A DNA stretch of 64,000 bases, taken from assembly GCF_003797835.1 (NCBI RefSeq), contig NZ_RKMF01000005.1, positions 62,001-126,000 of the forward strand, read 5' to 3'. Below are positions 26,652-60,164 of this stretch, one piece after another (positions within the stretch are counted from its first letter, which is position 1; every line of letters begins with the position of its first letter). The notes under the pieces are model-generated. The model was not told the DNA's origin, made no database searches, and saw only the letters and a program-made list of their open reading frames with translations. The position numbers were made by a program, and so were the translations under genes. This stretch comes from Kocuria soli (lineage in GTDB: Bacteria > Actinomycetota > Actinomycetes > Actinomycetales > Micrococcaceae).

Positions 26652-27809
26652 ATGACCTTGACGATCATGCCCATCTACGGAACTCGACCGGAAGCCATCA
26701 AAATGGCCCCGATCGTGAAGGCCCTGCAGGAGTCGAGTTCGTTCGATTGCGTGGTGACCGTGACAGGGCAGCACCGCGAAATGCTGGATCAGGTCAACGA
26801 GATCTTCGACATCACGCCCGATCACGACCTCAACATCATCCAGCCACGGCAGACGCTCAACGGTGTGCTCACCCGGACTGTCGAAGGCCTTGACGCGATC
26901 TTTGAAGAGTCTGCACCGGATGCGGTGATCGTTCAGGGTGACACGACGACGTCGACGGCCGGCGCGATCGCCGCCTTCTACCGGGGTATCCCGGTCATTC
27001 ACGCCGAAGCCGGGTTGAGGTCCTTCGATCTGTTCTCCCCCTTCCCCGAGGAAGCCAACCGGAGGATCACCTCGCAGATCACCAGCCTGCACCTGGCGCC
27101 CACGGACATCTCCAAGCGAAACCTCCAGGCGGAGTCGATCAACGGCGACGACGTCGTGGTCACGGGCAACACCGTGATCGACGCCCTGCATCACACGGTG
27201 GCAAAAGCGTTGCCTTTCACCGATCCGCAGCTCGAGGAGATCGCCCAGCGGTCGGGCAAGACGCTCCTGGTGACCACGCACCGTCGTGAGAACCAAGGAG
27301 AGGCCATGCGCGGCGTGGGGCGGGCGTTGGCGCGGATCGCCGACGCCGAACCGGACCTGACCATCGTCCTGCCGGCCCACCGGAACCCGGTCGTTCGCGA
27401 AGCCGTGCTTCCCGCCATTGAAGGCAAGCCCAACGTTCACGTCACCGAACCCCTGGCCTACGGCGAGTTCACCCGCATGCTGTCCGTGGCCGACGTGGTC
27501 CTCACGGACTCCGGTGGGGTGCAGGAGGAGGCGCCGTCGCTGGGGAAGCCCGTATTGGTCATGCGCGAGAACACGGAACGTCCGGAGGCCGTGACCGCCG
27601 GAACGGTCAAGCTCATCGGAACGGACGAGGAGCGGATCGTCGAGGAGGTCGACACGCTCCTGCACAACCATGCGATCTACGACGCCATGGCCAATGCGGT
27701 GAATCCCTACGGCGACGGCAAAGCGGCGGCGCGTACCATTGCAGCCATCGAGAAGATGTTCGACCTGGGCGACCGGTTGGAGGACTTCAACCCGGGGGTC
27801 AGTGGATAA
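26652..27809 (+). CDS. wecB: UDP-N-acetylglucosamine 2-epimerase (non-hydrolysing)
   Basis: WecB interconverts UDP-GlcNAc and UDP-ManNAc in the cytoplasm. Diagnostic motifs are GTRPEAIKMAP at the N-terminus, VQGDTTTSTAG, IHAEAGLRS, FPEEANRR and DSGGVQEEAPSLG with the UDP-binding glutamates. The length is 385 residues, normal for the family. GCGGAGGAAAG precedes the start. With wecC at 42.4-43.7 kb it provides UDP-ManNAcA, the precursor of teichuronic-acid-type and enterobacterial-common-antigen-type polymers. It opens a three-gene plus-strand operon (9-bp and 1-bp gaps) that converges on the main polysaccharide operon. Confidence 0.96.
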   Translation: MTLTIMPIYGTRPEAIKMAPIVKALQESSSFDCVVTVTGQHREMLDQVNEIFDITPDHDLNIIQPRQTLNGVLTRTVEGLDAIFEESAPDAVIVQGDTTTSTAGAIAAFYRGIPVIHAEAGLRSFDLFSPFPEEANRRITSQITSLHLAPTDISKRNLQAESINGDDVVVTGNTVIDALHHTVAKALPFTDPQLEEIAQRSGKTLLVTTHRRENQGEAMRGVGRALARIADAEPDLTIVLPAHRNPVVREAVLPAIEGKPNVHVTEPLAYGEFTRMLSVADVVLTDSGGVQEEAPSLGKPVLVMRENTERPEAVTAGTVKLIGTDEERIVEEVDTLLHNHAIYDAMANAVNPYGDGKAAARTIAAIEKMFDLGDRLEDFNPGVSG

Positions 27810-27818
27810 GGGGTAGTC

Positions 27819-29900
27819 GTGCATCCGAAGACCTACGCGTACGGGTTCTGTCTGGCGCCGGCCGGTCTGGCGAAAAACCTGCCGCCCAGCTTTCGAAGAC
27901 TGCCCTTGAGCCGTGGGTTCGAGCTGCACTACGACTCCAGACGCCCGCTTCAGCGAGCCGAAGCTGAGGACGGCACCATCGTGCTGGTCCACGGGCGAGC
28001 GTATTACCTCGGTGAGGACACCGACGAGAACCTGAGCCGCACAAAAGACGCAGCCGCTCGTTTGGCCGACGCCTTGAACGATTCGGAATCGGCGTTCCTC
28101 GAGTGCTTGGACCTGATGGCGGGCCGCCATCTGATCCTGGTGGTGAGTCGGACCGGACTATGGATCTATCACGATGCAGTTGGGTCCCGTTCCGTGTACT
28201 ACATGGCGGGAGGCGGCGGAGCAGCTTCTCATGCTCATCTCCTGGCATCCACTTTCGGTCTGAAACCATCCGGAGTGGTAAAGGCCTCGCACACCTGGGA
28301 TCTTTCCCCATTCACGGGTGGAAAAGCATTACCTCCCAACCACCGGATCGAGGTCCTGTCCGGCCAGGTTGAGCGCCATTGGCCCTTCCGACCGAACCCA
28401 TGGATTGCCCGCTCCGAGGAAGACCGCCTGGTACGGGTGCAGCAGCTGTGGCAACGTCAGATGGAACTCGTGGCGCGAGGGGTGACGCCCCTGCGCTTTG
28501 CGCTGAGTGGAGGTGCCGATTCCCGGTGTGTCCTTGCGCTGTCCCTGCCCTGGATGTCGGCGATCCCCTGCTTCACCTACGGGGGTAGTCCTGCGGCAGA
28601 TGACGGCGAGGACCATGCCCTCAACGGTGATGTCCGATTGGTCCGGCCCTTGGTGGATCTACTGGGATTGGATCATCGGGTCATCTACCGTGCCGACAAG
28701 AGTGTTCGTCCGCTGACTCCGGAAGAATCTCTGGCCTGCGACCGTAACAGCCTCGGCGTGCACGGCCGCTGGCTCTTGCCGCACTACCTGACCAACTTTT
28801 CGGAACCGGACCTGCTGGTCGTGCGCGGCAATGCCTTCGAGATAGCGCAGCACAAATGGGCTGCTCCCGAAGACACGGATGTTGTGGCCGCGGTCAGGTC
28901 GAGGTTGGTCAAACGCGCGACAGCGACCGGCGTCCAGATTCCGAAGGAGAGCCTTGCAGATCACTTCGACCGGTCCTTGGAGACCTATCTCCTCTCCTCT
29001 GACCTGCACGGGTATCTTCCCAGCGACCTGACGCACTGGGAATACCGCAACGGTCGCTGGGCCAGCGAGGTCTACAACGAAATCGATCTGGCGTTCGACA
29101 CGCACGTGCCGATCGGTGCACGTGCAATCTTGGAGCCTTTGTTGGCGTTCAGCCGACGGCAACGCGCGGAGTCGTACGCGTTCGGGGAACTGATCAATTC
29201 CACTGTCCCCGTGCTGAACTTCTTCGGCATGAGTGACACCAGGAACCTCTACGAAGTGGCGCGGGACACCCGCTTGTCCGCCGGCAGTTTGGCAACCGAG
29301 CACCCTGGACCGGCCCGTCCTGCGGCGTCGGTGGTCCCCAGCGCGGCAGTCACGGAGGAGCCGTGGCCCATGGATCACCCGTTGATCGTCCGTGACCCCT
29401 CCGGGCGAGAGCATGCCGTGGCGGTGCCGGAGGACATGAAATCCTGGTCCGCGTACGTCCCCTTGGAAAACTTCATTGCCGGAACCCAGGTGCACCGCAC
29501 CGTGCATGTTTGCACGGAGAACGGGGACCTCTTCTTCGACATGCACAAGACCTGGTCCGGGGACGGCAAGGACCGCTCCTTCTCCTACAGCGTGACGGTC
29601 GATGACCGCGTGGTGCTGACCCTCCCCGGGGCGTACCGCGTCGGGCGAATTCCCATCGCGGTACACGATGTTCGATGCGGCCAACGGATCCGGTTGTGCA
29701 TAACGGTTCACAAAGCTCGGGACAGGCTGTCTTGGCAGAACGCTACCCGGATCCAACTGTCCCACCTGCGCTTCGACCCTGGAGGTATCGGCGGTGGAAC
29801 ACCCACAGGCACGGCACCTTGCCTGCCCGATGTCGACTCGCTGAGGGACGACGAGGGGCTCGGTACGGTTCCCATGCCAACCACCGATAAAATGGGTTGA
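27819..29900 (+). CDS. Asparagine-synthetase-like enzyme, candidate uronic-acid amidotransferase
   Basis: This 693-residue protein carries an asparagine-synthetase ATP-pyrophosphatase motif at residues 229-236 (LSGGADSR). The preceding region of about 190 residues resembles a glutaminase-like N-terminal domain but lacks the catalytic Cys2 of class II amidotransferases (it starts MHPK). Ammonia may therefore come from elsewhere, or the domain is structural. The last 190 residues look strand-rich and are not part of AsnB. In polysaccharide loci such enzymes can amidate uronic acids. Here ManNAcA is the likely target, by inference from wecB and wecC. A GTG start is used, 9 bp after wecB. Confidence 0.7.
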   Translation: MHPKTYAYGFCLAPAGLAKNLPPSFRRLPLSRGFELHYDSRRPLQRAEAEDGTIVLVHGRAYYLGEDTDENLSRTKDAAARLADALNDSESAFLECLDLMAGRHLILVVSRTGLWIYHDAVGSRSVYYMAGGGGAASHAHLLASTFGLKPSGVVKASHTWDLSPFTGGKALPPNHRIEVLSGQVERHWPFRPNPWIARSEEDRLVRVQQLWQRQMELVARGVTPLRFALSGGADSRCVLALSLPWMSAIPCFTYGGSPAADDGEDHALNGDVRLVRPLVDLLGLDHRVIYRADKSVRPLTPEESLACDRNSLGVHGRWLLPHYLTNFSEPDLLVVRGNAFEIAQHKWAAPEDTDVVAAVRSRLVKRATATGVQIPKESLADHFDRSLETYLLSSDLHGYLPSDLTHWEYRNGRWASEVYNEIDLAFDTHVPIGARAILEPLLAFSRRQRAESYAFGELINSTVPVLNFFGMSDTRNLYEVARDTRLSAGSLATEHPGPARPAASVVPSAAVTEEPWPMDHPLIVRDPSGREHAVAVPEDMKSWSAYVPLENFIAGTQVHRTVHVCTENGDLFFDMHKTWSGDGKDRSFSYSVTVDDRVVLTLPGAYRVGRIPIAVHDVRCGQRIRLCITVHKARDRLSWQNATRIQLSHLRFDPGGIGGGTPTGTAPCLPDVDSLRDDEGLGTVPMPTTDKMG

Positions 29901-29901
29901 C

Positions 29902-30732
29902 ATGAACTGGTTGAAGGCCGTTGAATCCGCGCTAACCGTCGCGCTCGACGACGTTGCAGCGCTGACGGCCGAGTCTTTCCCCTTGGACGAGCCTGTCAGG
30001 GTGGATGTCGCCTTACCCGAGTCAATACTTCCCCTGCTCGTCGTGCGCCGGGACAGTCCTCGACTCGTGATCCTGCACAACGGTGCGGTCGACCTGGAAC
30101 GTTCCGAGGGTCGGCCGATCTTCCAGCGTTCTTCCTGGTGGCCGGACATCCAGGCCAGCCAGATCTTCGTGTGTGACCCCGGTACGGTGGGACCGGAAGC
30201 CATCTCGCTCAACTGGTTGCAGGCCGGTCCCCCTGTGTGGCCTGCGCACCTGACCACCAAGGTCATCCTCTTGCTGGCCAAGTCCCTCGGCGCCCCGCGG
30301 CCGGAGCAGCGGACCTACTTCGGGTCTTCGGCCGGTGGATTTGGCGCTTTGGCTTGCCTGGCCTACGACGTCCGAGCCCGAGCAATCGTGAACAACGCCC
30401 AGTTCGACTGGACGCGGTGGTACCCCCACCAGGTCCGTGATGTCCTGACGCGGCGGTTTCCGGGGCATCTGGCCGCTGACGTCCGGAGAAAATGGCCCTA
30501 TCGGACGAATGTTCTTCGCCATTTGTCGAGGGGGCGGGTTCCGCTCCAGATCGACTTTTGGGTGAACCTGGCGAGCCAGTACGACCGGGACATTCAAATG
30601 CCCATTTGGGTGGACTTCCTGAAGAAAAGTCCATTGGTGGCTGGTAACTCGACATTGCACACGTATTTTGATGAGGAGTCCGGTCACAATCCCTTGTCGC
30701 GGGAGAAGACCCTCGAATTGCTGAACGGGTGA
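29902..30732 (+). CDS. Alpha/beta-hydrolase-like protein of the polysaccharide locus
   Basis: This 276-residue protein has a nucleophile-elbow motif (YFGSSAGGFGAL, Ser143) and a late His in ESGHNPLS (about residue 262). Between them lies NNAQFDWTRWYP, which matches N-x-Q-x-D-x-x-R-x-Y-type segments in two other products of this locus (30811-33693 C-terminal domain and 33744-34634). All three form one local family, so esterase or acyltransferase action on the glycan is a fair guess. It has no signal peptide. It starts one base after the upstream stop, so translation is coupled. Confidence 0.65.
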   Translation: MNWLKAVESALTVALDDVAALTAESFPLDEPVRVDVALPESILPLLVVRRDSPRLVILHNGAVDLERSEGRPIFQRSSWWPDIQASQIFVCDPGTVGPEAISLNWLQAGPPVWPAHLTTKVILLLAKSLGAPRPEQRTYFGSSAGGFGALACLAYDVRARAIVNNAQFDWTRWYPHQVRDVLTRRFPGHLAADVRRKWPYRTNVLRHLSRGRVPLQIDFWVNLASQYDRDIQMPIWVDFLKKSPLVAGNSTLHTYFDEESGHNPLSREKTLELLNG

Positions 30733-30810
30733 ATCCGACGACGTGGCCCCGTAAGTGATTCCGGAGATCTGAATTCGAAGGGCTCCAGGCGAACTGACAG
30801 GAGCAACCTT

Positions 30811-33693
30811 TCAAGACGTGAGTTGCTGATACACGGAGGTCATGATCTCTGCGTACTTGTCGTTGTCGACGGGCTTGTGTCCGTCTCCTAGGTACAAGTC
30901 CACCCGGTTGACTGTCGTGCCAACGCCCATGTCTTCCAGGGCCTCAAGGAGTGGGAGTTCATGGTTGGCCACGTGGATTCGGTCTCCGGAGTTGCTCACG
31001 TAGGTCAGGGACTGTCCCAACGTGCCGGTCGTCCGGCACCGGTGGGCCACGCTCACGCGCGCGAGCTCGTCGTCACGCGTTGGGTCTGACCGGTCTCCGA
31101 AGGCTGCTTCAAAGGCCCGCCGCGCATGCGCAGCAGAGTAGCGTCGAATGTCAGTTTGTGGGTTGAAGACGACCGCGTGCGCTTCGGGCATCTGAGCGGC
31201 CACTTGCATAGCAGCGAACCCCCCACCGGAATTGCCCTGAAGGACTACGTGCTCTGTTCCCCACGTCGCGGCGGCCCCACGGATCACGTCAACCATCGCG
31301 GTCGTGAGGTCCCAGAATCCGGCCCCCAGATACCACCCGAGTCGCATTTGAGCGTCGAGATCGAGCGTTGCGTCGCTGAAACCAAGAATCGGGCCCATGG
31401 CCAGGCTCCGTTGGAGGGCAACTCTTTGAAAGAGTGGCAATCTGGACTTGGTTCGGTTTATGGCTCCGTGGAAAAGGACCGTCAATGTGTTCCCCGGGTA
31501 CGGTTCCACAAGTGTCGGAAGGACCAGCGGTCCGAATTCCACGGTGTGGAGACCGGCCTGATTCAAAGTTGTGGTGTGATTCCAACCCCCGAGGTGAGTC
31601 TTGATCGGAAGGTCGTAGTAGGTGGGGCGCCACGTCTCGTCCTGAGCCCAGTTGATCAACGGGGCCCGATTCGCAACCATCGCGGCAGACCGCCCGCTCC
31701 TGGCCTGCCGAAGATCACTCAGGCAAGCTTCAAGGCCGAGGTCGAAGTCACCGCCCGGTAGCTCGGGCCGGAGTTCGGATTCGAGTTCGTCTGCGAAGGC
31801 CTGTCGCTCAGCGGAGTCGAGGTGGGCCGCGTCCGCACGTGCCCGTGCGAGTCTCTCGAGCACGCTGGCGTGTTCCTCACGAGTGAGCTGGCGTGCGGGG
31901 CCAGTGGCGTGTCCGGCTGACGCGGGACGGCCCGGAACGGCAGAAGCTGGAGCAGGGGCTAGATCCAGCGCAGCCGCGGCGTCCTCCGTCGAGGCCGGGC
32001 CCGAGAGAACACGGACGTCGCGGTCACGAATCACCATGGTTTCCGCGGAGAATCCGTTGTCCACGGTCAGCCCGAGGACTCCCGCCGGTAGACCTTTGAC
32101 AGTAGAGAACTTCGGTGCCGTCTTCTGACCCGCTGAAAGGACGGTGACGAATCGGAAGGACTTTCCGTGCTTGGTCATCTCGACAACTGGCGCGGGCACA
32201 CTCTGCTTCCAGGCGGTTGCAATACGACCTTCCGGTAGCCACGGTGCCGTGTTGCGAATGATGGACGTGTCGGCCTTGGTCCCAGAGGCATAGAGCGCGG
32301 CGGATTTCTCCCCGCTGCTCAACGCCACGACATTCTTTGTGGACTCGGCCTCCACGCCCGCACCCAGTTGCCAGCGCTGAACTGCGACGACGTCACGATC
32401 AGCGCGCACAGTGTCCACCACAACGAGGTACTCCCCACTGGTGGAGAACAAGACTCTGCGCGTCAGGTCTACGTCTGCGTAGCCCTGGTCAGCGACCGTG
32501 ATGTCCCAGTGGCTGTCGGCCTCTTGATGGGCCAGGAGCGCCACGTCTGCGTTCCGGTCACGGTGCTCGTCCGGGAGATACACCAGGCTGTGACTGGAGT
32601 GCGCGATGACGTACTTCCGGATCGGGTCCTCGTGCGTGTAGGAGTACTTCCCTGGATCCGTGATCCAGTTGACTCCCCCGGCGGCGAATGTCAGGGATCC
32701 GCCGTCCGGGTGGCCATGGACCTTGAAGCGTCCGAACGGCATCGAGAAGAACGTCTCCTCTGCCATGTCCCGTTCAAACTCCCCCCACCCACTGCGGCCG
32801 AAGGCATACCCGTCGCGGTAGAGCTTGAACAATTCCTGGGGTGGTTCTCCCTCGCTGCCCTGAGATGTCACATAGCGACATGCTGGGTGGTCCACACCGT
32901 CGGCCGAACCACCATCGGTGTCCCCGATCGGGACGAACAAGCCGTCGGGACGTGTCGCATGTGCAAGGGCCACTGGCGTGGCCTCCAGGGATTCGGCACC
33001 CGCCGGGTAATCCAGCCCGGCCAACTCCAGCCGAGCGAGCAGCCGCTGCCACCAGATGTAGTTGTTGCGGTGGTATGCGATGGCACCTTCTGCGTTGATG
33101 CCTTCTGCATCCCATTGTTCTCGTAAGAGTTGCCCGATCCGCTCGACCGCCAACTCTGTCCAGTCGTGTCGGCCCAGGGCGATGCCGCACAGGAGCAGAC
33201 CTTCGTGTTGGTGCAGGGCATGATTGGAATGGCCCAGATGCCTGGGGTCGGCGATCCAGGCTCCGTGTTCGGTGATCGTCTTCTCCAGAACGGGGAGGGA
33301 GTCCGGAAACAGCTCACTGATCATGGGCACGCCGAGGACGAGATGCGTGGCGCGGATCCCGTCGACCATGTTGGCCCAAGCCGCTATGCATTTGGACCTT
33401 CCAGGCGGATTGTTCCGTGCCCAGTCGGTCGCATGGCGGAGCCACAGCTCGGCAGCGGGGACGTCGCCGGCCCGTCCCGCTTGGGCAAGGGGCGCCATCC
33501 AGCGCAGCATGTGCAACTGATGGATCCAGTTCTTGTCGTTGAACGGGTCTTCGGTCCATGTCAGGTGCTTCGGCATTGACCAGGTCGGGTGGGGCCTGAG
33601 AGTCAGTTCGCCACGCAGCAGGGCACTGGAGAATTGGTTCTTCCTGGCCGGAGCCGTGATCTGCTGCGAAATCGCAGCGATGTCCAATGCCAA
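30811..33693 (-). CDS. Heparinase II/III-like lyase fused to an alpha/beta hydrolase domain
   Basis: This is a 960-residue fusion. Residues about 1-570 resemble heparinase II/III-type polysaccharide lyases. An all-alpha toroid carries NHALHQHEGLL and AIAYHRNN, and a beta-sandwich carries KVHGHPDGGSLTF and NWITDPGKY. A low-complexity Ala/Pro linker and a charged helix (about 575-640) lead to a hydrolase domain with GNSGGGFAAM (Ser822), NPQTDIRRYS and LGDGHKP (His939). There is no signal peptide, so it is cytoplasmic or secreted unconventionally. It may cleave or edit uronic-acid glycans. It is the last gene of the minus-strand operon. Confidence 0.8.
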   Translation of the reverse strand: MALDIAAISQQITAPARKNQFSSALLRGELTLRPHPTWSMPKHLTWTEDPFNDKNWIHQLHMLRWMAPLAQAGRAGDVPAAELWLRHATDWARNNPPGRSKCIAAWANMVDGIRATHLVLGVPMISELFPDSLPVLEKTITEHGAWIADPRHLGHSNHALHQHEGLLLCGIALGRHDWTELAVERIGQLLREQWDAEGINAEGAIAYHRNNYIWWQRLLARLELAGLDYPAGAESLEATPVALAHATRPDGLFVPIGDTDGGSADGVDHPACRYVTSQGSEGEPPQELFKLYRDGYAFGRSGWGEFERDMAEETFFSMPFGRFKVHGHPDGGSLTFAAGGVNWITDPGKYSYTHEDPIRKYVIAHSSHSLVYLPDEHRDRNADVALLAHQEADSHWDITVADQGYADVDLTRRVLFSTSGEYLVVVDTVRADRDVVAVQRWQLGAGVEAESTKNVVALSSGEKSAALYASGTKADTSIIRNTAPWLPEGRIATAWKQSVPAPVVEMTKHGKSFRFVTVLSAGQKTAPKFSTVKGLPAGVLGLTVDNGFSAETMVIRDRDVRVLSGPASTEDAAAALDLAPAPASAVPGRPASAGHATGPARQLTREEHASVLERLARARADAAHLDSAERQAFADELESELRPELPGGDFDLGLEACLSDLRQARSGRSAAMVANRAPLINWAQDETWRPTYYDLPIKTHLGGWNHTTTLNQAGLHTVEFGPLVLPTLVEPYPGNTLTVLFHGAINRTKSRLPLFQRVALQRSLAMGPILGFSDATLDLDAQMRLGWYLGAGFWDLTTAMVDVIRGAAATWGTEHVVLQGNSGGGFAAMQVAAQMPEAHAVVFNPQTDIRRYSAAHARRAFEAAFGDRSDPTRDDELARVSVAHRCRTTGTLGQSLTYVSNSGDRIHVANHELPLLEALEDMGVGTTVNRVDLYLGDGHKPVDNDKYAEIMTSVYQQLTS

Positions 33694-33743
33694 CTGTCAC
33701 ACCTTTCATTGCCCGCCCGGTCATTGACCGGTGGCGGGGTCGG

Positions 33744-34634
33744 TTATCCGCGCTCAAGGTCCTGGAACGGACGACGATACTCATGCGCGGTCCGAAATCC
33801 GGCTTCGCTCCAGGCCGGTGAGTCCCAGGACTCGGTCAAGGCCATGTCCAGAGTGTGCACGATGAGTTCCTTGGGTGGGGCCTTGTGGCCATCTCCCCAG
33901 TCGCCCAGCATGAATCGCACATCTGGATTCTCGCGGGTGGCTTCGATGAAAGGTACGAAGTGCGGTGCAACGTGGTCGGCGTCGCCGGCGTTCTGCATGT
34001 ACACCACTCGGTTGGGCGACCCTTGCGCATAGAGGGACACGAGGTCGGTGCAGGGCGGGACGCGCGCCAGGTCCGCTGGGATGTCCACACCTGAGGTTTT
34101 CCAGCAGATTTTCAACCAGCGGCGGACCAATCCGGTGTTGTAGTTCCGCAGATCGGTCTGCGGGTTGGAAACAACCGCGATGCTTCCGGGGAGACGGTGT
34201 CCGTTGACCAGGCTCGCGAAGGCCCGTGCGGACCCGCCGTACAAGACCGTGCGGGCACGCGGTGCGGCGCTTTGGTAGTGGGCGATGATGCGGGGCAGCA
34301 CCTCGGCCAACGGTTGTCGCACGCTTCCCGTGTACCGGGCAAGAAAGACTTCCGGCGCCAACGCCGTCGACGGGTCGGAGAAGTGCAGGCCGTTCGTGTT
34401 CAAGGTTCGACTGATACCGAACCCGGTGAACCTTGGTGCCAAAGAATCCTTGGGTACCGCCGCAGTGAAGAACACCGTGAGGTTCTCGCTACCGCGTGCG
34501 ATGTAGCGGAAGTCGAGCGGAACGGGCTGCAGGTTGATTCGGATCACCCTGGACTGTCGATCATCCCGGGCAAGGAATTCCTCCAGGCTGCCGTAGATCA
34601 CATCGGGTTCGTGGTGCGGGTCCAGGGCAACCAT
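33744..34634 (-). CDS. Alpha/beta-hydrolase-like protein, paralogue of the fused domain
   Basis: This 296-residue protein aligns by eye with the C-terminal domain of the neighbouring fusion. LYGGSARAFASL holds the putative nucleophile Ser135 in a GGS-x-R setting. SNPQTDLRNYN matches the fusion's FNPQTDIRRYS, and LGDWGDGHKAPP supplies the histidine. The nucleophile context is less canonical than G-x-S-x-G, so activity is not assured. Its ATG shares one base with the TGA of the 1818-residue gene (TGATG), implying coupled translation. Substrate unknown; probably acts on the same polymer. Confidence 0.65.
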   Translation of the reverse strand: MVALDPHHEPDVIYGSLEEFLARDDRQSRVIRINLQPVPLDFRYIARGSENLTVFFTAAVPKDSLAPRFTGFGISRTLNTNGLHFSDPSTALAPEVFLARYTGSVRQPLAEVLPRIIAHYQSAAPRARTVLYGGSARAFASLVNGHRLPGSIAVVSNPQTDLRNYNTGLVRRWLKICWKTSGVDIPADLARVPPCTDLVSLYAQGSPNRVVYMQNAGDADHVAPHFVPFIEATRENPDVRFMLGDWGDGHKAPPKELIVHTLDMALTESWDSPAWSEAGFRTAHEYRRPFQDLERG

Positions 34635-37600
34635 CAGACGTCACTGCTTCCAAGGTCGGGCCGCGTGTCGTCCGTCAAGGAATGGTTCTGGTCGTATGAA
34701 ACATGCGCAGGATTCTGGTGGCCTTCCTCGCTTTCGAAGACGAACTCGGTGCGAGTACGTGCCTCCCCTTGGAACTCACCCGTCCAACGGACGGACCATG
34801 CCGGTTCAGTTCTTCGGTCCTCGCGGGATCGGACCCCTTCCACCTCTTCCCAGGTGTCGCCTATGCGGTTGGTGCGGACGGTGAGTTCTTCGTCAAGACC
34901 AGATATGCGCTTGAGGTGCAATGGTCCACCCCACTTCATGGACCTGATTCCGAGACCCTTCCCTTGCGCGTCCTCGCCTTGCATCCCCTGCTCGTCCGTG
35001 ATCTCGAGGCCGCCGTCGAGCAAGAACCAGGAATGCAGCGTGTGGCGCTCATCGTCCTGTGTCACGACGTGGTCCTCGATGACGAGCCGACGGCCCGGAT
35101 GGTACGTGACGGTTCGTTCAGATTCCCATCCGTCGTGGGGCACCGCAGTCACGATCCGGTATCCGCCGTCGTCAAGACGATCGAAGGAGACCAGCCCGGA
35201 TCCGTACGGCGCACGACGGCGGTCATGGAGCCTCGAGTCGACACTCACGGTTGAATGGGCAGCGCAGGATTCCATGTACTGGCGAATAGGATCTGAGTAA
35301 TAGAAGCCGTTGCTGCGCAATGGCGAGTCCTGCGGCAGCAGATCGCCATAGCGGTATCGGCCCCCGTCCACCAGAATTTCCTGGCCGTCTTCGAACCACA
35401 CCAGGCTTTGATCGTCACAGTGCTTATGCGTCCGGGAGTGGAATCCCGCCGTGACAGCCAGGTAGCTCGCATTTCTCCCCTCCTGCTCATCGGCATTGAG
35501 CCGACGCACGATCGCATAGCCCGTCTCCGGGAGGACCAAGGCGTCGTCGGTCGGGGCGACACCGCGGGCACCCTTGGACAGGACCCAGTCCGTTGTTGCC
35601 GACGAGGACGTGTCGGTGGCGTCCAGACGGCCTTGGGCAGAGTCCCCCAACTGAAGCACCTGGCCTTGCGGCAGGATCATCCAGCCCAGAGCGTCGGCGG
35701 CCTTCCCAATGCGGCTCACAACCTCGGGATCCTGTACGGCACCGAGGCTTATGGCGCCCTCGAAGGAGTTCAAGAGCATCCGGTGGTACTCCGGGGAATG
35801 CTCGGCGTGGCCGCCGTCGGACAGGAACTGTGTGGCCGTCATGATGCGAAGTCGGGAATCGCCCTGAGCCTTGAGGGCTTTCATTCCCGGAAGTTGCGGA
35901 AATGCCCGGGACAGGACCACCTGGCTGACGGCCGAGTAGTACCCGTGATTGTTCCGGGGGTTGAAGGAATCGGGACGCCAATGGGCATCGCGCTGACGCA
36001 GTGTCGACGCCACCAATGTGTTGAAGTCGGAATCGGAGACCGCAGAGGACCCTGCCACGGCGCGGATCAGCCCCTGCAAAGCCACGGATCGGTACGCCAA
36101 GGCCATGTCGTACCACGCCATGGTGGATGGATCGATGACCGGGAAGTACGTTGCCCACCGCAAAGCCCGTTGAACCGCCCACTCGAGATAGTGTGCGCTG
36201 CCAGTCTCTTCCCAGGCTTCAAGGACTGGTGTGAGGAACTCCCAGCTGTGCAGGTACATCTGCAACGTCCGGTCAAGTTCCTCGACCTGGAGCCAGTCGA
36301 AGTCTTCCGGGATGGCAATGGCCGGGAATCCGTGATTGGACCAGCCGTCCGCAATGATCTCGTCGGCGGTCCGGACGGGGTCGTACTGCGGCTGGCCCGT
36401 ATGGACGGTGAGATACCGAAGTGCCTCATGACGGCTGAGATTGCGCAGATCATTGCGCAGCGCAAGCGCATCGTATGGCTCGGAGAGTGGATCATCGGCG
36501 GGCCTGAACGGCAGAAACCCGACGTTCTCGTACGGAGCGTCGTAGAGGTCTGCAATGGCCGCCCAGGACCGTGCTTGGCGTACCCACTCCGCCCCCTTGA
36601 CCGACATGGCCAGGCGCCTTTCAGGATCATTCAGCAGTTCGTTGAGCACCTGCGCCAGGTCGGCCGGGTCACCTGCAGTGAAAGTTGCGGCAGCTCCGCT
36701 CTGGTCGGCGATTTCCCGTAGGGCATCGACGTCGGAGACCACAACGGCCCGGCCCGTGGAAAAGGCTTCGAAGGGTTTGAGGGGTGTGACCAGGCGGCAC
36801 ACGGTCCGGTCCTTGCGTGGCACCACGAAGAGGTCGATCAAGCTGTAGTAGTTGAGAACGCTCTCGTGCGGGACCCGTCCCGTGAAGATCACACGATCCG
36901 CGACGCCCAGGTTCTTGGCCAGGTGCTCCAGTGAAGACCGCACCGGTCCGTCTCCGACGAGCAGTAACCATGTCTCCGGTTGTTCTTGTAGGACGGTTCG
37001 GAATGCAGTGAGCAGCGTGTCAATGCCCTCGTACTCGACCACGGACGTGATGTACCCGATCACCGGGGCCTCAGGCGGAATCCCCAGTTCGGCCTTGAGT
37101 GTCAGGTCCGGTTCGATAACCGGGAACTCGTCCGGCTGGACGCCGTTGGGGGTCACGGAGACCTTGGCGGCTTCCTCACCGCGCTCGACGATGTGGTCCT
37201 TCATGACCTCGGCGAGCGTGGTCACCCGGTCCGAAAGCGCCCGAGCAGCATCCTCCCGCGCGCGGCGCAGCGTGTAGGCCTCGGGCAGACCGTAGCGGTC
37301 GTAGTCGCGAGTCAGGTCTCGGCCCGACTTGGTCTCGATGCGGGAGAGCCACGATTCTTCCCAGAACCCGCGGCTCTCGTAGACCACAGGGAGTCCGAAG
37401 GCCTGGGCCACCGGGTGGGCGATCATGTGATTCACGAAATCCGAATGGCAGTGCAGCACGCTTGGGCGCACGCGCGCCACCAACTCGGACAATTCTCGGA
37501 CGTTCAGTTCCAACCATTCGTCCCACGGCAGGGTTCCGCGCGGTTGCCCTTCGGGTAGGTGATAGGTCACCCCGTCCAGAAGCACTTCGGGTTCTTCGAC

Positions 37601-40090
37601 GGCCTCGGGGACACCCCCGGCCTGCCGGAAGGCGTGGACGTCGTAACCCTTCTGCACCTGCGCTTGGGCAAGGTAGTGCGTGCGTAGGGTGTAGCCGGTT
37701 TGAGTCTCCGGAATGGCCTTTCCGACGACGTGCAGCACACGACCGGCCACAGGCTCGAAAGATTCCGGGGGCTCACAGTTCAGAGTGATCTCACCGCGCA
37801 TCATGGCGATTTCCGAGGTTCGGATCTCGATGGTCCGGCGGTCCTTGTCGCTGCCCGTCACCGTGAGCACGCTGTTGAGCAATTCCAGGCTGCGGAGCCA
37901 GTAACCGCGTGAGTAGAGGTCCTTGGCCAGGTGACGTCGCTGGGCGAGCGTCAGCGGGATCGCGTCGGTCTTGTGGCGCCACTGCTCGTAGACGTACAGC
38001 GGATCCTGGATGTACGGCAGGTACTGGGCGAAGTCTGCTCCCCCGAGGATCGTGCGACGTGGGACATCGGGCGGCAACAGCGGCAGGATGGCGGCGACCA
38101 GCTTGAGTTCACGTTCCAGATCGTCCTGGTGGACCTTGGCCAGTTGCTTGACCTTCTTGGAGGTCGACGCCAGTTTCTGCTCGACGTCTTCGACACCCCT
38201 GTTCTCGACAGCGGTGGCCTCGGCCTGACGGGCGCTCACGAGCGCGAGTCTCTGCTCGAGTGCGTCCAGCCGTGTCCGTAGCACCGCCGCCTCGAAGTCG
38301 GATTTGATTTCGGGCACTTCAACCCCCTTGTAGACAGGGTCCTGTTCGACGGTCACACCGTCCTGGTCGATGGTGATGCCCCAGATCTGACCGGCCCGCT
38401 GGACCCTGAGCCAGGCGGTATCGGCCTTCACCCGGCTCGAAACCACCGACCAAGGATCCTGGGTCGACTCACCGAGCACCGTGGTGAAGAAGCCCCGGCG
38501 GGCCTTCTGCTCCACGTGGAAGCCTGCGGCCTTGTTCTTCTTGCCCCAGCGGCCCGAGACCCAATTCTCGGGTCGGCCGTCCTCCGCATAGGACACCTTG
38601 GGTCGGGCACCACCGGCCAGCCAGTTGACCGTGAACCGGCGGCCGTCAGCGGTCTGCAGTTCCAACGCTTGGTCTCGATAGCGTGGTTTGACCCCTGAGT
38701 CCGTGTGCCAGAGCTGTCTGGCCACCACCTCGTCAGTGCTGTCGAAGACATCCGTGACCACCATGAGGTCCAGAGCCGGCAGATAGACGATCCGGCGGGT
38801 GAGTCGCACGCCGTCGTAGTTCGAGTCCACCACGGTCATGTCGTGCACGGTGTCCGTGAAGTCCACCGATTGCAGGGTCACGTGCCCTTCGCGGTCGTAG
38901 TCCTTGCCGTCGATCACGACGAGGTTGTGGCCTGCCCGGGAACGGAGATACCGGCGGAACGGGTCCTTGGGCTCGTACATGTACGACCCGGGATCGGTGA
39001 TCCAGTCGAAGCCGTTGGCGAAGAAGGTCAGACCGCCCCTGTCCTCGTGGTGGTGGGCCGAATAGGCCCTGCCGAACCGAAGGCTGTAGTGACTGTGTTC
39101 TGCGAAGGATCCGTCCTGCTCACCCCAGCCCGAGCGTCCCATGACGTAGCCATTTGAGGCGGCAACGGCAGTAGCGGCCGGTGGCATGCCTGCAGTTCCC
39201 TGGCTGGCCACGTACTCGAGTTCCGGGAACCCCATATCCGTGACCTCACGGAGGTGAGTGTCCCCGATCGGCACCATCGTTCCATCGGGTCTCGTGGCGT
39301 GCGCCAGGAACGTAGCGGCCTGAGCGAGTTGGGCGGCAACGGACTCAGGAACCCTTCCCCCTTCCTGGGCGACACGGTCCCACGTCTTCTGCCACCACGA
39401 GATGTTCATCCGGTGGTAGTCGATCGAGCCTTCGTCGTTGGCACCGTTCTCGTCGAAAGACACCTCGAAGAGACGGGCCAATCGACCGATGCTCAGGTCG
39501 CGCCACTTGTCATGTCGCAGAAAGCTCGAGAGCACGAACAGTCCAATGTTCTGGTGCAGGGCGTGATTGGCGTGGGACTGGTGCTCCTCGTCGGCCAGCC
39601 ATTCGCCGTGGGTCTCGAGCGCACCGAGGAGCACGCCCCGTTCCTCGTCGGTCTTGGCCAGCGGCCAGCCAAACACCAGTTCCTGGGCCCGCAGGCCGTC
39701 TGCCATGTCCACCCAAGAAAACTGGGAGGCCGGCGCATCGGGATGGTTGTGCTCGATCCAGGACCGCACCGTGGCAAGCCAGAACTGGCGGGCCTCCTCC
39801 GAACCGTCTGTCGCGGAATGGCGTACGGGTGAGAGCCAGCGCAGAGCGTGGAACTGGAACTGCCAGTTGCGTGAGCCGAAGGGGTCGGCCGACCAGTCGT
39901 CGTAGCCATCGGTCTTCCACACAGCGTGCGGGGCCAGCTGCAAGGAGCCGGACATGACCTTGGCAGCCCGATCGTCGTTGTTGTCCCGGCGTTCGAACCC
40001 GGCTCCCACACACTGCCGCGTGCAGACGTCCTCGTTGACGTCGTAGCGCTGTAGCAGATCCTGGATCGTGCCGCTGTCGGTGTCTGTCAT
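34634..40090 (-). CDS. Giant three-part protein: heparinase II/III-like, GT4 glycosyltransferase, heparinase II/III-like
   Basis: This is an 1818-residue single reading frame. Residues about 45-590 form a heparinase II/III-like lyase (NHALHQNIGLF at 175, DYHRMN at 224, HHHEDRGGLTF at 346). A charged coiled coil spans about 598-665. Residues about 783-1180 are a GT4 glycosyltransferase (IPETQTGYTLRTH near 793, SVTPNGVQPDEF near 978, LKPFEAFSTGRAVVVSD with the acidic EX7-type site at 1104). A second, divergent lyase module fills about 1250-1790 (HAEHSPEYHRM at 1428, HKHCDDQSLVWF at 1555). There is no signal peptide. The ATG at 40088-40090 excludes an unrelated 50-codon extension. Build-and-cut of one polymer is the inferred role. 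Confidence 0.85.
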   Translation of the reverse strand: MTDTDSGTIQDLLQRYDVNEDVCTRQCVGAGFERRDNNDDRAAKVMSGSLQLAPHAVWKTDGYDDWSADPFGSRNWQFQFHALRWLSPVRHSATDGSEEARQFWLATVRSWIEHNHPDAPASQFSWVDMADGLRAQELVFGWPLAKTDEERGVLLGALETHGEWLADEEHQSHANHALHQNIGLFVLSSFLRHDKWRDLSIGRLARLFEVSFDENGANDEGSIDYHRMNISWWQKTWDRVAQEGGRVPESVAAQLAQAATFLAHATRPDGTMVPIGDTHLREVTDMGFPELEYVASQGTAGMPPAATAVAASNGYVMGRSGWGEQDGSFAEHSHYSLRFGRAYSAHHHEDRGGLTFFANGFDWITDPGSYMYEPKDPFRRYLRSRAGHNLVVIDGKDYDREGHVTLQSVDFTDTVHDMTVVDSNYDGVRLTRRIVYLPALDLMVVTDVFDSTDEVVARQLWHTDSGVKPRYRDQALELQTADGRRFTVNWLAGGARPKVSYAEDGRPENWVSGRWGKKNKAAGFHVEQKARRGFFTTVLGESTQDPWSVVSSRVKADTAWLRVQRAGQIWGITIDQDGVTVEQDPVYKGVEVPEIKSDFEAAVLRTRLDALEQRLALVSARQAEATAVENRGVEDVEQKLASTSKKVKQLAKVHQDDLERELKLVAAILPLLPPDVPRRTILGGADFAQYLPYIQDPLYVYEQWRHKTDAIPLTLAQRRHLAKDLYSRGYWLRSLELLNSVLTVTGSDKDRRTIEIRTSEIAMMRGEITLNCEPPESFEPVAGRVLHVVGKAIPETQTGYTLRTHYLAQAQVQKGYDVHAFRQAGGVPEAVEEPEVLLDGVTYHLPEGQPRGTLPWDEWLELNVRELSELVARVRPSVLHCHSDFVNHMIAHPVAQAFGLPVVYESRGFWEESWLSRIETKSGRDLTRDYDRYGLPEAYTLRRAREDAARALSDRVTTLAEVMKDHIVERGEEAAKVSVTPNGVQPDEFPVIEPDLTLKAELGIPPEAPVIGYITSVVEYEGIDTLLTAFRTVLQEQPETWLLLVGDGPVRSSLEHLAKNLGVADRVIFTGRVPHESVLNYYSLIDLFVVPRKDRTVCRLVTPLKPFEAFSTGRAVVVSDVDALREIADQSGAAATFTAGDPADLAQVLNELLNDPERRLAMSVKGAEWVRQARSWAAIADLYDAPYENVGFLPFRPADDPLSEPYDALALRNDLRNLSRHEALRYLTVHTGQPQYDPVRTADEIIADGWSNHGFPAIAIPEDFDWLQVEELDRTLQMYLHSWEFLTPVLEAWEETGSAHYLEWAVQRALRWATYFPVIDPSTMAWYDMALAYRSVALQGLIRAVAGSSAVSDSDFNTLVASTLRQRDAHWRPDSFNPRNNHGYYSAVSQVVLSRAFPQLPGMKALKAQGDSRLRIMTATQFLSDGGHAEHSPEYHRMLLNSFEGAISLGAVQDPEVVSRIGKAADALGWMILPQGQVLQLGDSAQGRLDATDTSSSATTDWVLSKGARGVAPTDDALVLPETGYAIVRRLNADEQEGRNASYLAVTAGFHSRTHKHCDDQSLVWFEDGQEILVDGGRYRYGDLLPQDSPLRSNGFYYSDPIRQYMESCAAHSTVSVDSRLHDRRRAPYGSGLVSFDRLDDGGYRIVTAVPHDGWESERTVTYHPGRRLVIEDHVVTQDDERHTLHSWFLLDGGLEITDEQGMQGEDAQGKGLGIRSMKWGGPLHLKRISGLDEELTVRTNRIGDTWEEVEGVRSREDRRTEPAWSVRWTGEFQGEARTRTEFVFESEEGHQNPAHVSYDQNHSLTDDTRPDLGSSDV

Positions 40091-40097
40091 GGAGAAC

Positions 40098-42350
40098 CTA
40101 TCCCGCAGGGGTCGACGCGCGTCGGCCTCCGAGCTGATCGTAGATATCGGACACGATGCCTGCCACGCCGGACCATTGGCGGTTTTCAACCACCCAGGTG
40201 CGGCCGCGTTCGGCGAGATCCTGGCGTTGCTGCGGGTCATTCAGCAGCTGCTCCAGGACCCGTACCAGGTCGTCGGTGTCACCCTTGCGGTGCAACAGGC
40301 CGTTGACACCGGGTGTGATGATTTCGGCCAGGGCCGCGACGTCCGAGGCGACCACGGCCTTCTGCATGGCCAGGGCCTCAAACGGCTTGAGTGGCGAGAC
40401 CATCTCGCAGACCGGAAGCGGGAGTCGCGGGAACGGGGCAATGTCCACCAGCGAGTAATACCGCTCGACGTCCTGGTGAGGTACCCGGCCTGTGAACCGC
40501 ACCAAGCCCTCCAGTCCTCGCTCCTGGACGATCCCCTGGAACTTCTCCAACTCCGCACCGTCGCCCACGATCAGCACGGCGAAGTCGTCGCGGTTTCGGC
40601 CCAGGATCTCCGCGGCGTCGATCAGCAGACCGAGACCCTCGTAGTCCAGAACCGATCCCACGTAGCCGATCACTGTCTTGCCCTGCAGACCCAGCTCAGC
40701 CTCCAGACCGGAGTCGCGGTCCTGAGGCTGGAACCGGTCTCCGTTGACGGCGTTGGGCACCACCGTGATCTTGTCGCCGTCCACCCCGCGGCTGATGAGT
40801 TCGTCCTTGAGCGCCTGGGTGATGGCCAGGACGTGGGTGGCCTCGGCTGCGGCGTCGGCCTCCATACGGGCCATGAACTTGTACATGCCACCCTGTGCCC
40901 ACTCGGGATCGCGTGATCCTCGGGTGACTTCCCAGAGCCCGCGCACTTCGTAAATGGACGGAATCCCCAGGCGATTGGCGGTGGCCACGGCGGCCAGTCC
41001 GTTCCAGTGGTTGGAGGCCGCGTGCAGGATCGCGGGGCGCTCGGACCGCGCCGTCCTCTCCAGAGCGCGGGAGTAGCGCTCCACGTAGGAGGTGATGGGG
41101 CTCTTCTTCTCGATTCCCGCGGTGATGCTGAGCCGGTGGTACGGGACACCGTCCACCACGTCGGTCTCCGGAATGGGACCGAGTTCGGCCATGCCCGGCA
41201 TGTCGTACGGATACCCGAGTCGGGTCACGCCGCGAACGTCCCAGCCCTGGTCCCGCAGTCCGGTCAGAAGACCGTGCGTTCGGGTGCTGTAGCCGGCGGA
41301 GTGATACGGCAAGGAGTTGTGCAGCAGGTAGAAGATCCGATCCCCCACCGCGTCGTATGCACTGCGGTCCCGACGATGCGGGAACGGAAAACCTTGCTTG
41401 GCCAGCTGATAGTTGGACGGGGTCGAGTTCTTCCGCAACCGTTCGTCGTGCTGCCGTGCCCAACCGTCCTCCGGCTCCAGACGACGGTACTCCGCCAGCA
41501 ACCGCCGGGCACCTGGCAACCGGTTGTCCCTCAGATCACGACGGATCGCCAGACGTAGGGACCAACGGGACACGGCCCGGTCCGGCAACTGGTGCATGAG
41601 TTCGATGGCCCGGGTCCGCCGCCCTCGTTGCAGACTGAACAGCAGCTTGGCAAGGACGTACTCGTCCTCCGACAACCACGCGGGCTTGGGATAGTCCCAG
41701 GCGGCCTCCGGCTCAAGGGCCTGTTCCACGACGGCGCGGGTGATGCGGTCGGGGCTTTCGGCAAGGATCGGCAAGGCCGCGTCCAATGACGACGGGATGA
41801 CGAAGTCCAGTGAACGCCGGTGCTGGTCCGGACGCTGCTCAAGTGCTGCCACCAGTGCGTCATACGCCTCGAGAACGGCCGGCATACGTTCCTTGTCGCC
41901 GGTGCCGGCGTCGACCAACAACTCCAGGGCGTCCAGGTTGGCCGGGTCCTCCGCCAACGCGTTCTTGAGGGCTTCGAAGGCTGCCCCGTAGTTGCGCGAC
42001 TCCATGAGCCGGAGTGCGTACAGTTGCCAGGCCGTCGAATCGTGCGGCTGATCCAACAGCAACCGACGGAGATGGTCGACCGCCTCGGCAGAGTTTCCAC
42101 CGTCACGGGCCTCCGCGGAACGTCCGAGGGCTTGTGCCCGCACACTAGCCGCGCGTTCGGCCTCCCGTTCACGGTCGGCCTCGAGCTCTGCGGCCACCCG
42201 TTCGGCGAGCGTCTCGGCCGCCAGGCTCGCGTCGGCGTCGGGGGCGGAAGTAGCCTGCACCTCGAGTCCGGAGGGGGTCAACCACTGAGCCGTGGTCCGA
42301 CGCAGGTGCCAGAGTCGACGTCGTGCGTCGTCGTACATGGGGGGTGCCAT
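40098..42350 (-). CDS. GT4 glycosyltransferase with N-terminal helical/TPR region
   Basis: This 750-residue protein has a coiled-coil and TPR-like N-terminal third (a charged Glu/Arg/Ala helix, then YALRLMESRNYGAAFEALKNAL). The GT4 part begins near LHNSLPYHSAGYSTRTHGL and has VVPNAVNGDRF, VGDGAELEKF and LKPFEALAMQKAVVASD. It is closely related to the glycosyltransferase module of the downstream giant protein, 7 bp away. The ATG at 42348-42350 follows AAGGAC. It lies in the same operon and probably adds one sugar of the repeat unit; donor and linkage are unknown. Confidence 0.85.
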   Translation of the reverse strand: MAPPMYDDARRRLWHLRRTTAQWLTPSGLEVQATSAPDADASLAAETLAERVAAELEADREREAERAASVRAQALGRSAEARDGGNSAEAVDHLRRLLLDQPHDSTAWQLYALRLMESRNYGAAFEALKNALAEDPANLDALELLVDAGTGDKERMPAVLEAYDALVAALEQRPDQHRRSLDFVIPSSLDAALPILAESPDRITRAVVEQALEPEAAWDYPKPAWLSEDEYVLAKLLFSLQRGRRTRAIELMHQLPDRAVSRWSLRLAIRRDLRDNRLPGARRLLAEYRRLEPEDGWARQHDERLRKNSTPSNYQLAKQGFPFPHRRDRSAYDAVGDRIFYLLHNSLPYHSAGYSTRTHGLLTGLRDQGWDVRGVTRLGYPYDMPGMAELGPIPETDVVDGVPYHRLSITAGIEKKSPITSYVERYSRALERTARSERPAILHAASNHWNGLAAVATANRLGIPSIYEVRGLWEVTRGSRDPEWAQGGMYKFMARMEADAAAEATHVLAITQALKDELISRGVDGDKITVVPNAVNGDRFQPQDRDSGLEAELGLQGKTVIGYVGSVLDYEGLGLLIDAAEILGRNRDDFAVLIVGDGAELEKFQGIVQERGLEGLVRFTGRVPHQDVERYYSLVDIAPFPRLPLPVCEMVSPLKPFEALAMQKAVVASDVAALAEIITPGVNGLLHRKGDTDDLVRVLEQLLNDPQQRQDLAERGRTWVVENRQWSGVAGIVSDIYDQLGGRRASTPAG

Positions 42351-42444: not shown

Positions 42445-43707
42445 TCAGCGCCAGAGGCCCTTCGTGTCGACGACGGCCTTGCCTGCCAGGGCCGTCGCGG
42501 GAAGATCCTTGAACTCGTCGTGGTCCACGAGCAACAGCACGACGTCGGCGCGTTCGATTGCGTCGCGGTATTCCGCGAACTCGACGTTGGCCAGTCCCTC
42601 GAGTGCCTTCGGGAGGGCCTGGACATTGGGCTCGACGGCGAGCACGGTGGCATCGGGCGTGGAGCCGGCAAGCTCCTTGGTGATGTCCAGTGCCGGAGAC
42701 TCGCGCAGGTCGTCGATGTTGGCCTTGAACGCGAGTCCGAGGGCCGCGACCACGGGCGAAGCCTTGTGGGACACAGCGTCCCTGACTTTGTTGATCACCC
42801 AGTGGGGCTTGCCGTCGTTGACTTCACGGGCGGTCCGGATGAGGTTCGAGTTCTCGCGGTCGGAGGAGACGATGAACCACGGGTCGACGGCGATGCAGTG
42901 GCCACCCACGCCGGGGCCCGGCTGCAGGATGTTCACCCGGGGGTGGTGGTTGGCTAGCTCTATGAGCTCCCAGACGTCGATCCCGAGCTTGTCCGAAATC
43001 AGGGAGAGCTCGTTGGCGAAGGCGATGTTGACATCGCGGAAGGAGTTCTCCGTGAGTTTGGCCATCTCGGCCGTGACGTCGTCGGTCTCCAGGAGCTCGC
43101 CCTTGCAGAACGTCTCGTACACCGCCCGTCCGCGCTTGGCGGCTTCCGGGGTCATGCCGCCGATGATGCGGTCGTTGGTGATCAGTTCCTCCATCGCGCG
43201 CCCCGGAAGGATGCGCTCCGGGCAGTAGGCCAGGTGGATGAGCTTCTTGTCGCCCTGCGCCGCTTCCTCCGGATCGACCGTGAGATCGGGGCGGGCGCTG
43301 GTGAGCACCTCGGCGAGCTTCCGGGTGGTCAGCGGAGGCGAGGTCGACTCCAGGATCACGAGTTCATCGCCCTGCAGCAACGGAGCGATGTTGGCGGCTG
43401 CGGCCTCGATGAAGGAGGTGTCGCCCTCGTAGTTCTCCTTGAACGGAGTGGGAACCGCGATCACGTAGGCGTCCCCCGACTGCATGTCCGTGTGCGCGGT
43501 GAGGCTCCCGGAATCGACGGCCTTCTTGAGTTCCTCCTCCAAACCCGGCTCCACGATGGTGACCTCACCGCGAGACACACGGTCCACGACGGATTGATTC
43601 ACGTCGACGCCGCGGACCTGCACGCCACTGTTGGCCAGGGTCACGGCCGTGGGAAGGCCGATGTAACCGAGGCCGACGAAAACGACTGTCTGGAGATTCT
43701 GCGCCAT
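42445..43707 (-). CDS. wecC: UDP-N-acetyl-D-mannosamine dehydrogenase (UDP-ManNAcA forming)
   Basis: WecC oxidises UDP-ManNAc to UDP-ManNAcA with two NAD+. It has an N-terminal Rossmann motif (VGLGYIGLPTA), the TENSFRDVNIAFANEL helix, a GVGGHCIAVDP segment with the catalytic Cys, and a C-terminal UDP-binding domain (GLAFKANIDDLRESP). The 420-residue length is normal. WecC rather than a UDP-glucose dehydrogenase is preferred because wecB is present and the motif details fit. It has its own upstream gap of 125 bp and a terminator after it, so it may be transcribed separately from its neighbours. Confidence 0.93.
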   Translation of the reverse strand: MAQNLQTVVFVGLGYIGLPTAVTLANSGVQVRGVDVNQSVVDRVSRGEVTIVEPGLEEELKKAVDSGSLTAHTDMQSGDAYVIAVPTPFKENYEGDTSFIEAAAANIAPLLQGDELVILESTSPPLTTRKLAEVLTSARPDLTVDPEEAAQGDKKLIHLAYCPERILPGRAMEELITNDRIIGGMTPEAAKRGRAVYETFCKGELLETDDVTAEMAKLTENSFRDVNIAFANELSLISDKLGIDVWELIELANHHPRVNILQPGPGVGGHCIAVDPWFIVSSDRENSNLIRTAREVNDGKPHWVINKVRDAVSHKASPVVAALGLAFKANIDDLRESPALDITKELAGSTPDATVLAVEPNVQALPKALEGLANVEFAEYRDAIERADVVLLLVDHDEFKDLPATALAGKAVVDTKGLWR

Positions 43708-52023: not shown

Positions 52024-52103
52024 TGGCACGTCCTTTGGTCACGGGAATGGCATGTTGTCGGCCGCTCGGCGGACAACGAACTACTCAGCGCAAGATTGTC
52101 CCA

Positions 52104-60077: not shown

Positions 60078-60103
60078 CTCTGGCGGAGGGGCCGTGCTAT
60101 GCT

Positions 60104-60153: not shown

Positions 60154-60164
60154 GTAGGAGGGTC

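Follow-up and report, generated by a model that had tools for sequence, protein, structure and literature searches.

Three CsaC/Asp2-like domains, one fused to a heparinase-like lyase, in a Kocuria soli locus for a putative ManNAcA-containing polymer

Introduction

CsaC (also SacC), an O-acetyltransferase of the Neisseria meningitidis serogroup A capsule, is described as working through a Ser114-His228-Asp198 triad that is unusually extended by His201-Gln138-Tyr79. Acetyl-CoA gives rise to an acetyl-Ser114 intermediate, mutants lose activity, and the D198A substitution removes 99.5% of it (PMC7501274). Asp2, which with Gap2 belongs to the streptococcal accessory-Sec systems, is reported to O-acetylate GlcNAc (PMC5578698). 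Among lyases, heparinase III has Tyr294 and His424 as its assigned catalytic residues and Asn240 as the neutraliser (PMC12088678). The teichuronic acid of Micrococcus luteus is given as [-4-ManNAcA-6-Glc-]n (PMC3005890).

Here we analyse 64,000 nucleotides from Kocuria soli (the window; G+C 66%), in which an earlier note had described three related hydrolase domains, one of them fused to a heparinase-like lyase. We refer to the three proteins as P1, P2 and P3, and to the C-terminal domain of P2 as P2C.

Results and discussion

Genes for a putative ManNAcA-containing wall polymer

The three proteins are encoded within what appears to be the parts list of a ManNAcA-containing, teichuronic-acid-like wall polymer (Table 1). 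The polymer is predicted here from its precursor genes, whereas the ManNAcA-containing wall polymer of M. luteus is described as such and as anchored to peptidoglycan.

Table 1 Features of the surface-polymer locus, in window positions
Feature	Positions	Strand	Remarks
UDP-GlcNAc 2-epimerase (WecB), makes UDP-ManNAc	26652..27809	+	TIGR00236, 453 bits (cutoff 210)
PP-loop protein	27819..29900	+	LSGGADSR motif; ends one base before P1
P1, free CsaC/Asp2-like domain	29902..30732	+	276 aa; variant active site
P2, whole putative lyase-acetyltransferase fusion	30811..33693	-	960 aa; TTG start
P2C, CsaC/Asp2-like putative O-acetyltransferase domain	30817..31683	-	P2 residues 671-959; complete site
P2 N-terminal part, heparinase II/III (PL12-like) lyase module	31954..33693	-	P2 residues 1-580
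P3, free CsaC/Asp2-like domain	33744..34634	-	296 aa; elbow GGSARAF
Heparinase module, GT4 glycosyltransferase, second heparinase module	34634..40240	-	1868 aa
GT4 glycosyltransferase	40098..42350	-	
UDP-ManNAc dehydrogenase, makes UDP-ManNAcA	42445..43707	-	NF008286, 563.7 bits (cutoff 459)
Two-domain glycosyltransferase	43833..45812	-	Glyco_trans_1_2 + GT2
ABC transporter ATPase	45809..46783	-	Wzt/TagH-like
ABC-2 membrane subunit	46764..47759	-	Wzm-like
GT4 glycosyltransferase	47740..49617	-	
LCP (LytR-CpsA-Psr) glycopolymer transferase	50941..52029	-	

Similar surroundings were found elsewhere. In 48 genomes with fetched domain loci, a context sampled around domain matches and thus not an unbiased survey, an epimerase was nearby in 28, a nucleotide-sugar dehydrogenase (any match at E <= 1e-8) in 32 and either of the two in 38; GT4 glycosyltransferases were nearby in 34 and heparinase modules in 18. 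The counts for epimerase, dehydrogenase, GT4 and heparinase were all zero in 20 control regions drawn from 15 of these genomes, where the ABC ATPase was the only query to match (2/20).

P1, P2, P3 and the 1868-aa protein have no N-terminal hydrophobic stretch, and no signal peptide was seen in P2, as expected if the polymer is made and modified inside the cell before export by the ABC transporter.

Near the locus lies a gene for a subtilase with three SLH stretches (54718-56841, +); SLH domains elsewhere bind pyruvylated ManNAc polymers. The window also has an Abi_2 (abortive-infection-like) gene (60099-61151, +).

P1, P3 and the C-terminal third of P2 share one uncatalogued domain

In pairwise BLASTP comparisons, P3 and P1 matched P2 with E-values of 3e-16 and 2e-8, respectively, and P1 matched P3 at only 0.03. 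Given the weak match between P1 and P3, profiles were built without any window sequence. The first, from 53 domains that also excluded every P1-type sequence, was searched against the 591 window ORFs of at least 60 aa (stop to stop) and matched exactly three of them, P1, P2 and P3 (E = 7.8e-72, 1.8e-70 and 1.4e-29, the last being P1). A second profile, from 17 P1-type domains, matched the same three ORFs, and the leave-out control with 20 shuffled versions of each ORF yielded no match at E <= 10. The shared domain is therefore real and far from chance: P1, P3 and the C-terminal third of P2 carry one domain of a single superfamily, as the earlier note had proposed. Its coordinates and its serines (Ser143 of P1, Ser822 of P2, Ser135 of P3) were present as given, and its motifs, namely a Ser elbow, an N-P/A-Q-x-D segment followed by Y or W, and a late Gly-His, had been read correctly.

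The domain is a family uncatalogued in Pfam and NCBIfam. Neither database has a family for P1 or P3, and the heparinase part is the only region of P2 above a Pfam cutoff. Generic matches to SA1320, UPF0227, Hydrolase_4 and Peptidase_S9 stayed below threshold. The XcbB/CpsF family (NF033892) was considered and set aside; it was weakly matched by 4 of the 43 members (best E 2.4e-4), and P1, P2 and P3 had no listed match at E <= 1.

Two sets of domains are used below: an alignment of 43 of the 45 listed domains, two partial ones being left out, and a wider set of 75, which excludes nine short matches and from which the tree was built. In the second domain of one family member (L106:8537-10273), the nucleophilic Ser is replaced by Cys (GSCGGG).

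CsaC and Asp2/Gap2 are the nearest relatives by profile and fold

When the profile of the 43 domains was compared with the PDB, the best match was Asp2 (6lnw, E = 6e-6), followed by CsaC (6yuo, E = 2.6e-4, and a second CsaC entry). Then came a carboxylesterase (9x6a, 0.0079) and a predicted hydrolase/acyltransferase (7dq9, 0.07); Gap2 (6oyc, 0.08) was placed behind these two generic hydrolases.

The AlphaFold model of P2C (pLDDT 75, pTM 0.80) superimposed on the four CsaC entries (6yuo, 6yuq, 6yus and 6yuv) with VIA-align Z of 22.2-22.6 (about 22.5) and rmsd of 2.9-3.1 over 230-233 residues, and on Gap2 with Z of 22.0; the next structure scored 19.3. For the P1 model (pLDDT 82.9), which is not independent because P2C, P3 and family rows were part of its alignment, the values were 20.8-21.6 for CsaC, 19.4 for Gap2 and 18.2 for the next structure. 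P3 was placed by sequence. Structure comparison thus sets P2C and P1 nearest to CsaC and Gap2 by VIA-align Z, but not by Foldseek E-value, which ranks DPP4-type peptidases first, Gap2 29th and CsaC 41st; the Foldseek matches shown are proteins of the alpha/beta-hydrolase fold. Taking profile and fold together, the CsaC and Asp2/Gap2 O-acetyltransferases are the nearest relatives of the domain.

Besides the fold, the locus resembles the CsaC system in that the pathway includes a UDP-GlcNAc 2-epimerase and the polymer would be assembled intracellularly and then exported. It differs in that identity in the structural alignment is 12-13%, and in that CsaC is a stand-alone enzyme acting on a ManNAc-1-phosphate polymer, whereas here the domain is fused to a lyase and present as three paralogues, one with an altered acid. 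With Asp2/Gap2 the domain has in common the Ser elbow and a DP motif. Asp2, however, modifies glycoprotein GlcNAc during SecA2/Y2 export, whereas the present domains lie in a polysaccharide locus with ABC export. SecA2 and SecY2, which mark the accessory Sec operon of Asp2 proper, were not among the 17 window proteins scanned with Pfam.

Active sites are complete in P2C and P3 and variant in P1

In a HMMER alignment, Ser114, Gln138, Asp198, His201 and His228 of CsaC coincide with Ser152, Gln176, Asp234, His237 and His269 in P2C numbering, corresponding to Ser822, Gln846, Asp904, His907 and His939 of full-length P2. The Ser and the late His, which the earlier note expected to be conserved among homologues, are present in all 43 aligned domains, the Gln in 41, the Asp in 35 and the second His in 34. 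P2C has the complete Ser-His-Asp triad (S822/H939/D904) and the Gln138/His201 extension of CsaC (Q846/H907). P3 likewise retains all five residues, both the triad (S135/H250/D218) and the extension (Q159/H221). CsaC Arg148, a polymer contact, is unmatched in P2C, where the sequence has a His.

P1 retains Ser143, Gln167 and His262 and has Ser225 and Asp228 where CsaC has Asp198 and His201. Its triad is incomplete, with an Asp three residues beyond the expected place, and so is its extension, in which Asp228 takes the place of the second His and Q167 alone is kept. Lacking a CsaC-type triad, P1 is therefore classed as a member of a related subfamily and not as a CsaC-type enzyme. The Ser/Asp pattern occurs in 7/7 P1-type rows of the 43-domain alignment and in 18/19 members of the wider set, the 19th (L102:1) lacking residues at the late Gly-His position; it is invariant in 10/10 aligned P1-type members.

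The departure in P3 concerns the elbow. GGSARAF, which stands in place of GGS(A/G)GGF, interrupts the two glycines that would follow the Ser and is found in 1 of 75 domains. The closest relative of P3, in locus L100 of a congener, has GGSGGGF. P3 therefore appears to have been altered in this lineage, and the elbow that the earlier note had singled out does depart from the family.

These variants could mean that P1 and P3 are pseudoenzymes with a regulatory or binding role towards P2, or towards each other, a reading we consider possible though doubtful and one that the earlier note had raised for P3. The regularity of the P1-type pattern and the unique elbow of P3 would fit such a role, as would the presence of P1-type and P3-type genes within one locus in L045, L047, L051, L053, L056 and L100. 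Against it, P1-type domains keep the Ser, Gln and late His, and their invariant shifted Asp could serve as the acid, while the site of P3 is otherwise intact.

The lyase module of P2 retains heparinase III residues

The N-terminal part of P2 matches the two Hepar_II_III families of Pfam, PF07940 (3.1e-14, 53.5 bits, cutoff 24) and PF16889 (1.2e-10, 41.7 bits, cutoff 22), and residues 1-580 match Pedobacter heparinus heparinase III (4mmh) with E = 5.6e-14. In the alignment to 4mmh, Asn157, Tyr207 and His326 of P2 correspond to the published Asn240, Tyr294 and His424 (PMC12088678), with an offset of 24 between chain and residue numbering that was chosen because all three residues then agree. The fusion to a heparinase-like lyase noticed earlier is thereby upheld. 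P2 is like the PL12 heparinases III of known structure (4mmh, 4fnv, 5jmd) in its two-part heparinase II/III fold, as judged by Pfam, and in the Asn/Tyr/His set. It differs from them in lacking a signal peptide, and in that modules of this kind are here fused to an acetyltransferase-like domain or to GT4 and lie in a biosynthetic locus. Both heparinase modules of the 1868-aa protein also keep Asn/Tyr/His. An 1811-aa protein of the same heparinase-GT4-heparinase architecture is encoded in the congener (L100:7858-13293).

Seven strong fusions of a heparinase module with the acetyltransferase-like domain were found. Four keep all three lyase residues (P2, L034:10924, L035 and L036), and three lack them (L034:2377, L037 and L038), the alignment being uncertain for these distant modules; in the latter three the acetyltransferase site is intact despite the lost lyase residues. 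Cutting is therefore not essential to the fusion. An eighth ORF (L058:4305) has a heparinase match and a weak, short match to the domain.

It is accordingly conceivable, if on the unlikely side, that the lyase modules of P2 and of the 1868-aa glycosyltransferase fusion are polymer-binding or chain-length scaffolds, and that P2 is a tethered O-acetyltransferase. The three fusions without Asn/Tyr/His favour this, and so do the modules inside a biosynthetic chain, adjoining a GT4 domain. It is opposed by the retention of all three residues, in aligned motifs, in P2, L034:10924, L035, L036 and both modules of the 1868-aa protein.

P1-type domains accompany a PP-loop protein

The PP-loop protein upstream of P1 looks asparagine-synthetase-like by eye, and neither its sequence nor a profile of it matched Pfam or the PDB. 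Its homologues are fused to P1-type domains in L102, L108, L109, L110 and L111. A P1-type domain is present in 9/9 genomes with the PP-loop protein vs 9/39 without it (Fisher p 3e-5, indicative only, as the genomes are related). Amidation, which the earlier note had raised as one possible activity, finds no support in the three domains themselves; the neighbour of P1 resembles amide-forming PP-loop proteins by eye only.

Other partners were seen among 18 proteins that were scanned. DUF6270 occurred in eight (L042, L048, L049, L052, L057, L058, L062 and L063), the match to the domain being short in the DUF6270 fusion L062:15013; heparinase in three, one of them below the cutoff; and C5-epimerase, hexapeptide repeats and rhamnosyltransferase in one each. 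No paper on DUF6270 was found among the open-licence papers searched.

A model for acetylation and cleavage of one polymer

We consider it likely that P1, P2C and P3 are cytoplasmic CsaC/Asp2-like O-acetyltransferases that act on the ManNAcA-containing wall or capsule polymer of the locus, and that P2 also cuts this polymer. We hypothesize that the locus builds a teichuronic-acid-like polymer in the cytoplasm and that its ABC transporter exports it. P2C, and probably P3, would transfer an acetyl group from acetyl-CoA to the nucleophilic Ser, forming an acyl-enzyme, and then to a sugar hydroxyl. The lyase module of P2 would cut at unprotected uronic acid residues. Because a relative of acetyltransferases is fused to a polymer-cutting lyase, a single P2 chain may act on the same polymer in both ways, by cleavage and by O-acetylation. 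Finished stretches could then be protected by their acetyl groups from the lyases of the locus, which would provide control over chain length and modification. P1 would represent a subfamily whose charge relay is rewired and which acts together with the PP-loop protein encoded next to it.

In alginate synthesis, the lyase AlgL and the O-acetylation proteins AlgI/J/F/X act likewise on chain length and modification. The likeness would lie in a lyase and O-acetylation acting on one nascent uronic acid polymer; the alginate acetyltransferases, however, are unrelated and periplasmic, whereas here the predicted activities are cytoplasmic and lie on one polypeptide.

The earlier note had left open deacylation or acyl transfer on the same polymer. 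Acyl transfer is the favoured half of that proposal; deacylation is less likely, given that both of the closest relatives with solved structures are O-acetyltransferases. If the domains were instead polysaccharide O-deacetylases or esterases, P2 would strip the acetyl groups that block its own lyase and then cut, in remodelling or turnover. This we regard as improbable. In its favour, esterases and hydrolases have the same fold, and esterases, S9 peptidases and S-formylglutathione hydrolases superimpose at Z 16-19; Asp2 (PMC5578698) and CsaC (PMC7501274) are both reported to hydrolyse acetyl donors when no acceptor is supplied; and a lyase joined to the domain within a single chain would suit an 'unblock and cut' scheme. 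Nevertheless, the nearest solved relatives by both sequence and VIA-align Z are transferases, the Gln/second-His pair specific to CsaC is kept in P2C and P3, and the missing signal peptide makes turnover outside the cell unlikely.

A more specialised version of the transferase reading, to which we give little credence, would make P2 a single-chain, cytoplasmic 'cut or protect' editor that sets chain length before export, its lyase trimming those stretches of the nascent uronic acid polymer that its acetyltransferase has not marked, and P1 a shifted-acid acyltransferase that receives its acyl group from a carboxylate activated with ATP by the PP-loop protein, and not from acetyl-CoA. The idea that the likeness of the three domains is a generic alpha/beta-hydrolase signature spread over different families, for which the P1-P3 BLASTP value by itself would speak, is already refuted by the leave-out profile and is at odds with the invariance of Pro83, Asp104, Gly150, Ser152 and His269 (P2C numbering) in 43 domains, the last three showing exceptions in the wider set of 75, and with the occurrence of the family's DP motif in Asp2.

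If the O-acetyltransferase model holds, the CsaC/Asp2 placement offers a testable reaction for many unnamed proteins, including those fused to lyases, DUF6270, C5-epimerase, hexapeptide repeats and PP-loop enzymes. Surface-polymer loci in the order to which the window belongs commonly carry the domain, yet it has no name in Pfam or NCBIfam. The lyase fusion is also a compact system in which to test the coupling of O-acetylation and cleavage in one polymer. No paper joining heparinase with teichuronic acid, Asp2 with CsaC, or broader sets of these subjects was found among the open-licence papers searched.

Origins and spread of the three paralogues

In the maximum-likelihood tree of 75 domains, P1 pairs with its L100 counterpart (support 100) within an 18-tip clade (100), and P3 also pairs with an L100 protein (100). 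P2C forms a 4-tip clade with three other heparinase fusions (100) inside an 8-tip clade (99), of which 7/8 are heparinase fusions. Local tandem duplication is ruled out by this tree, in which the three domains fall into separate clades with support of 99-100. The local expansion suggested by the earlier note is therefore not borne out: each domain sits in a clade of its own together with proteins from other genomes, and P1, P2 and P3 are, on this phylogeny, old paralogues brought together. L100 shows the same gene order as the window (ABC pair, glycosyltransferase, dehydrogenase, GT4, heparinase-GT4-heparinase, P3, P1, PP-loop, epimerase), without P2 and with a GSCFA gene and another small ORF between P3 and P1.

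Within the genus, 16/27 genomes match P2 at E <= 1e-10 by the heparinase part, the domain or both; loci were fetched for 15 of these 16, G297 being left out. Across the order, 32/297 genomes match at E <= 1e-10 and 84/297 at E <= 1e-3. Most order matches beyond 1e-10 come from frames of roughly 690-980 aa that match in part; we take these for S9-type peptidases and did not count them. A phylum-wide sample gave 6/396 genomes at E <= 1e-10, with a different query that makes comparison with the order a rough one. The genus, order and phylum figures at 1e-10 all include the window's own genome. For a Hespellia candidate (L033, 23%), no match was listed when its frames were searched with a profile. 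P1-type relatives were absent from the viral contigs. Nine contigs filed as viral (L067-L075) encode the domain, and these may be prophage-borne or mis-filed host DNA.
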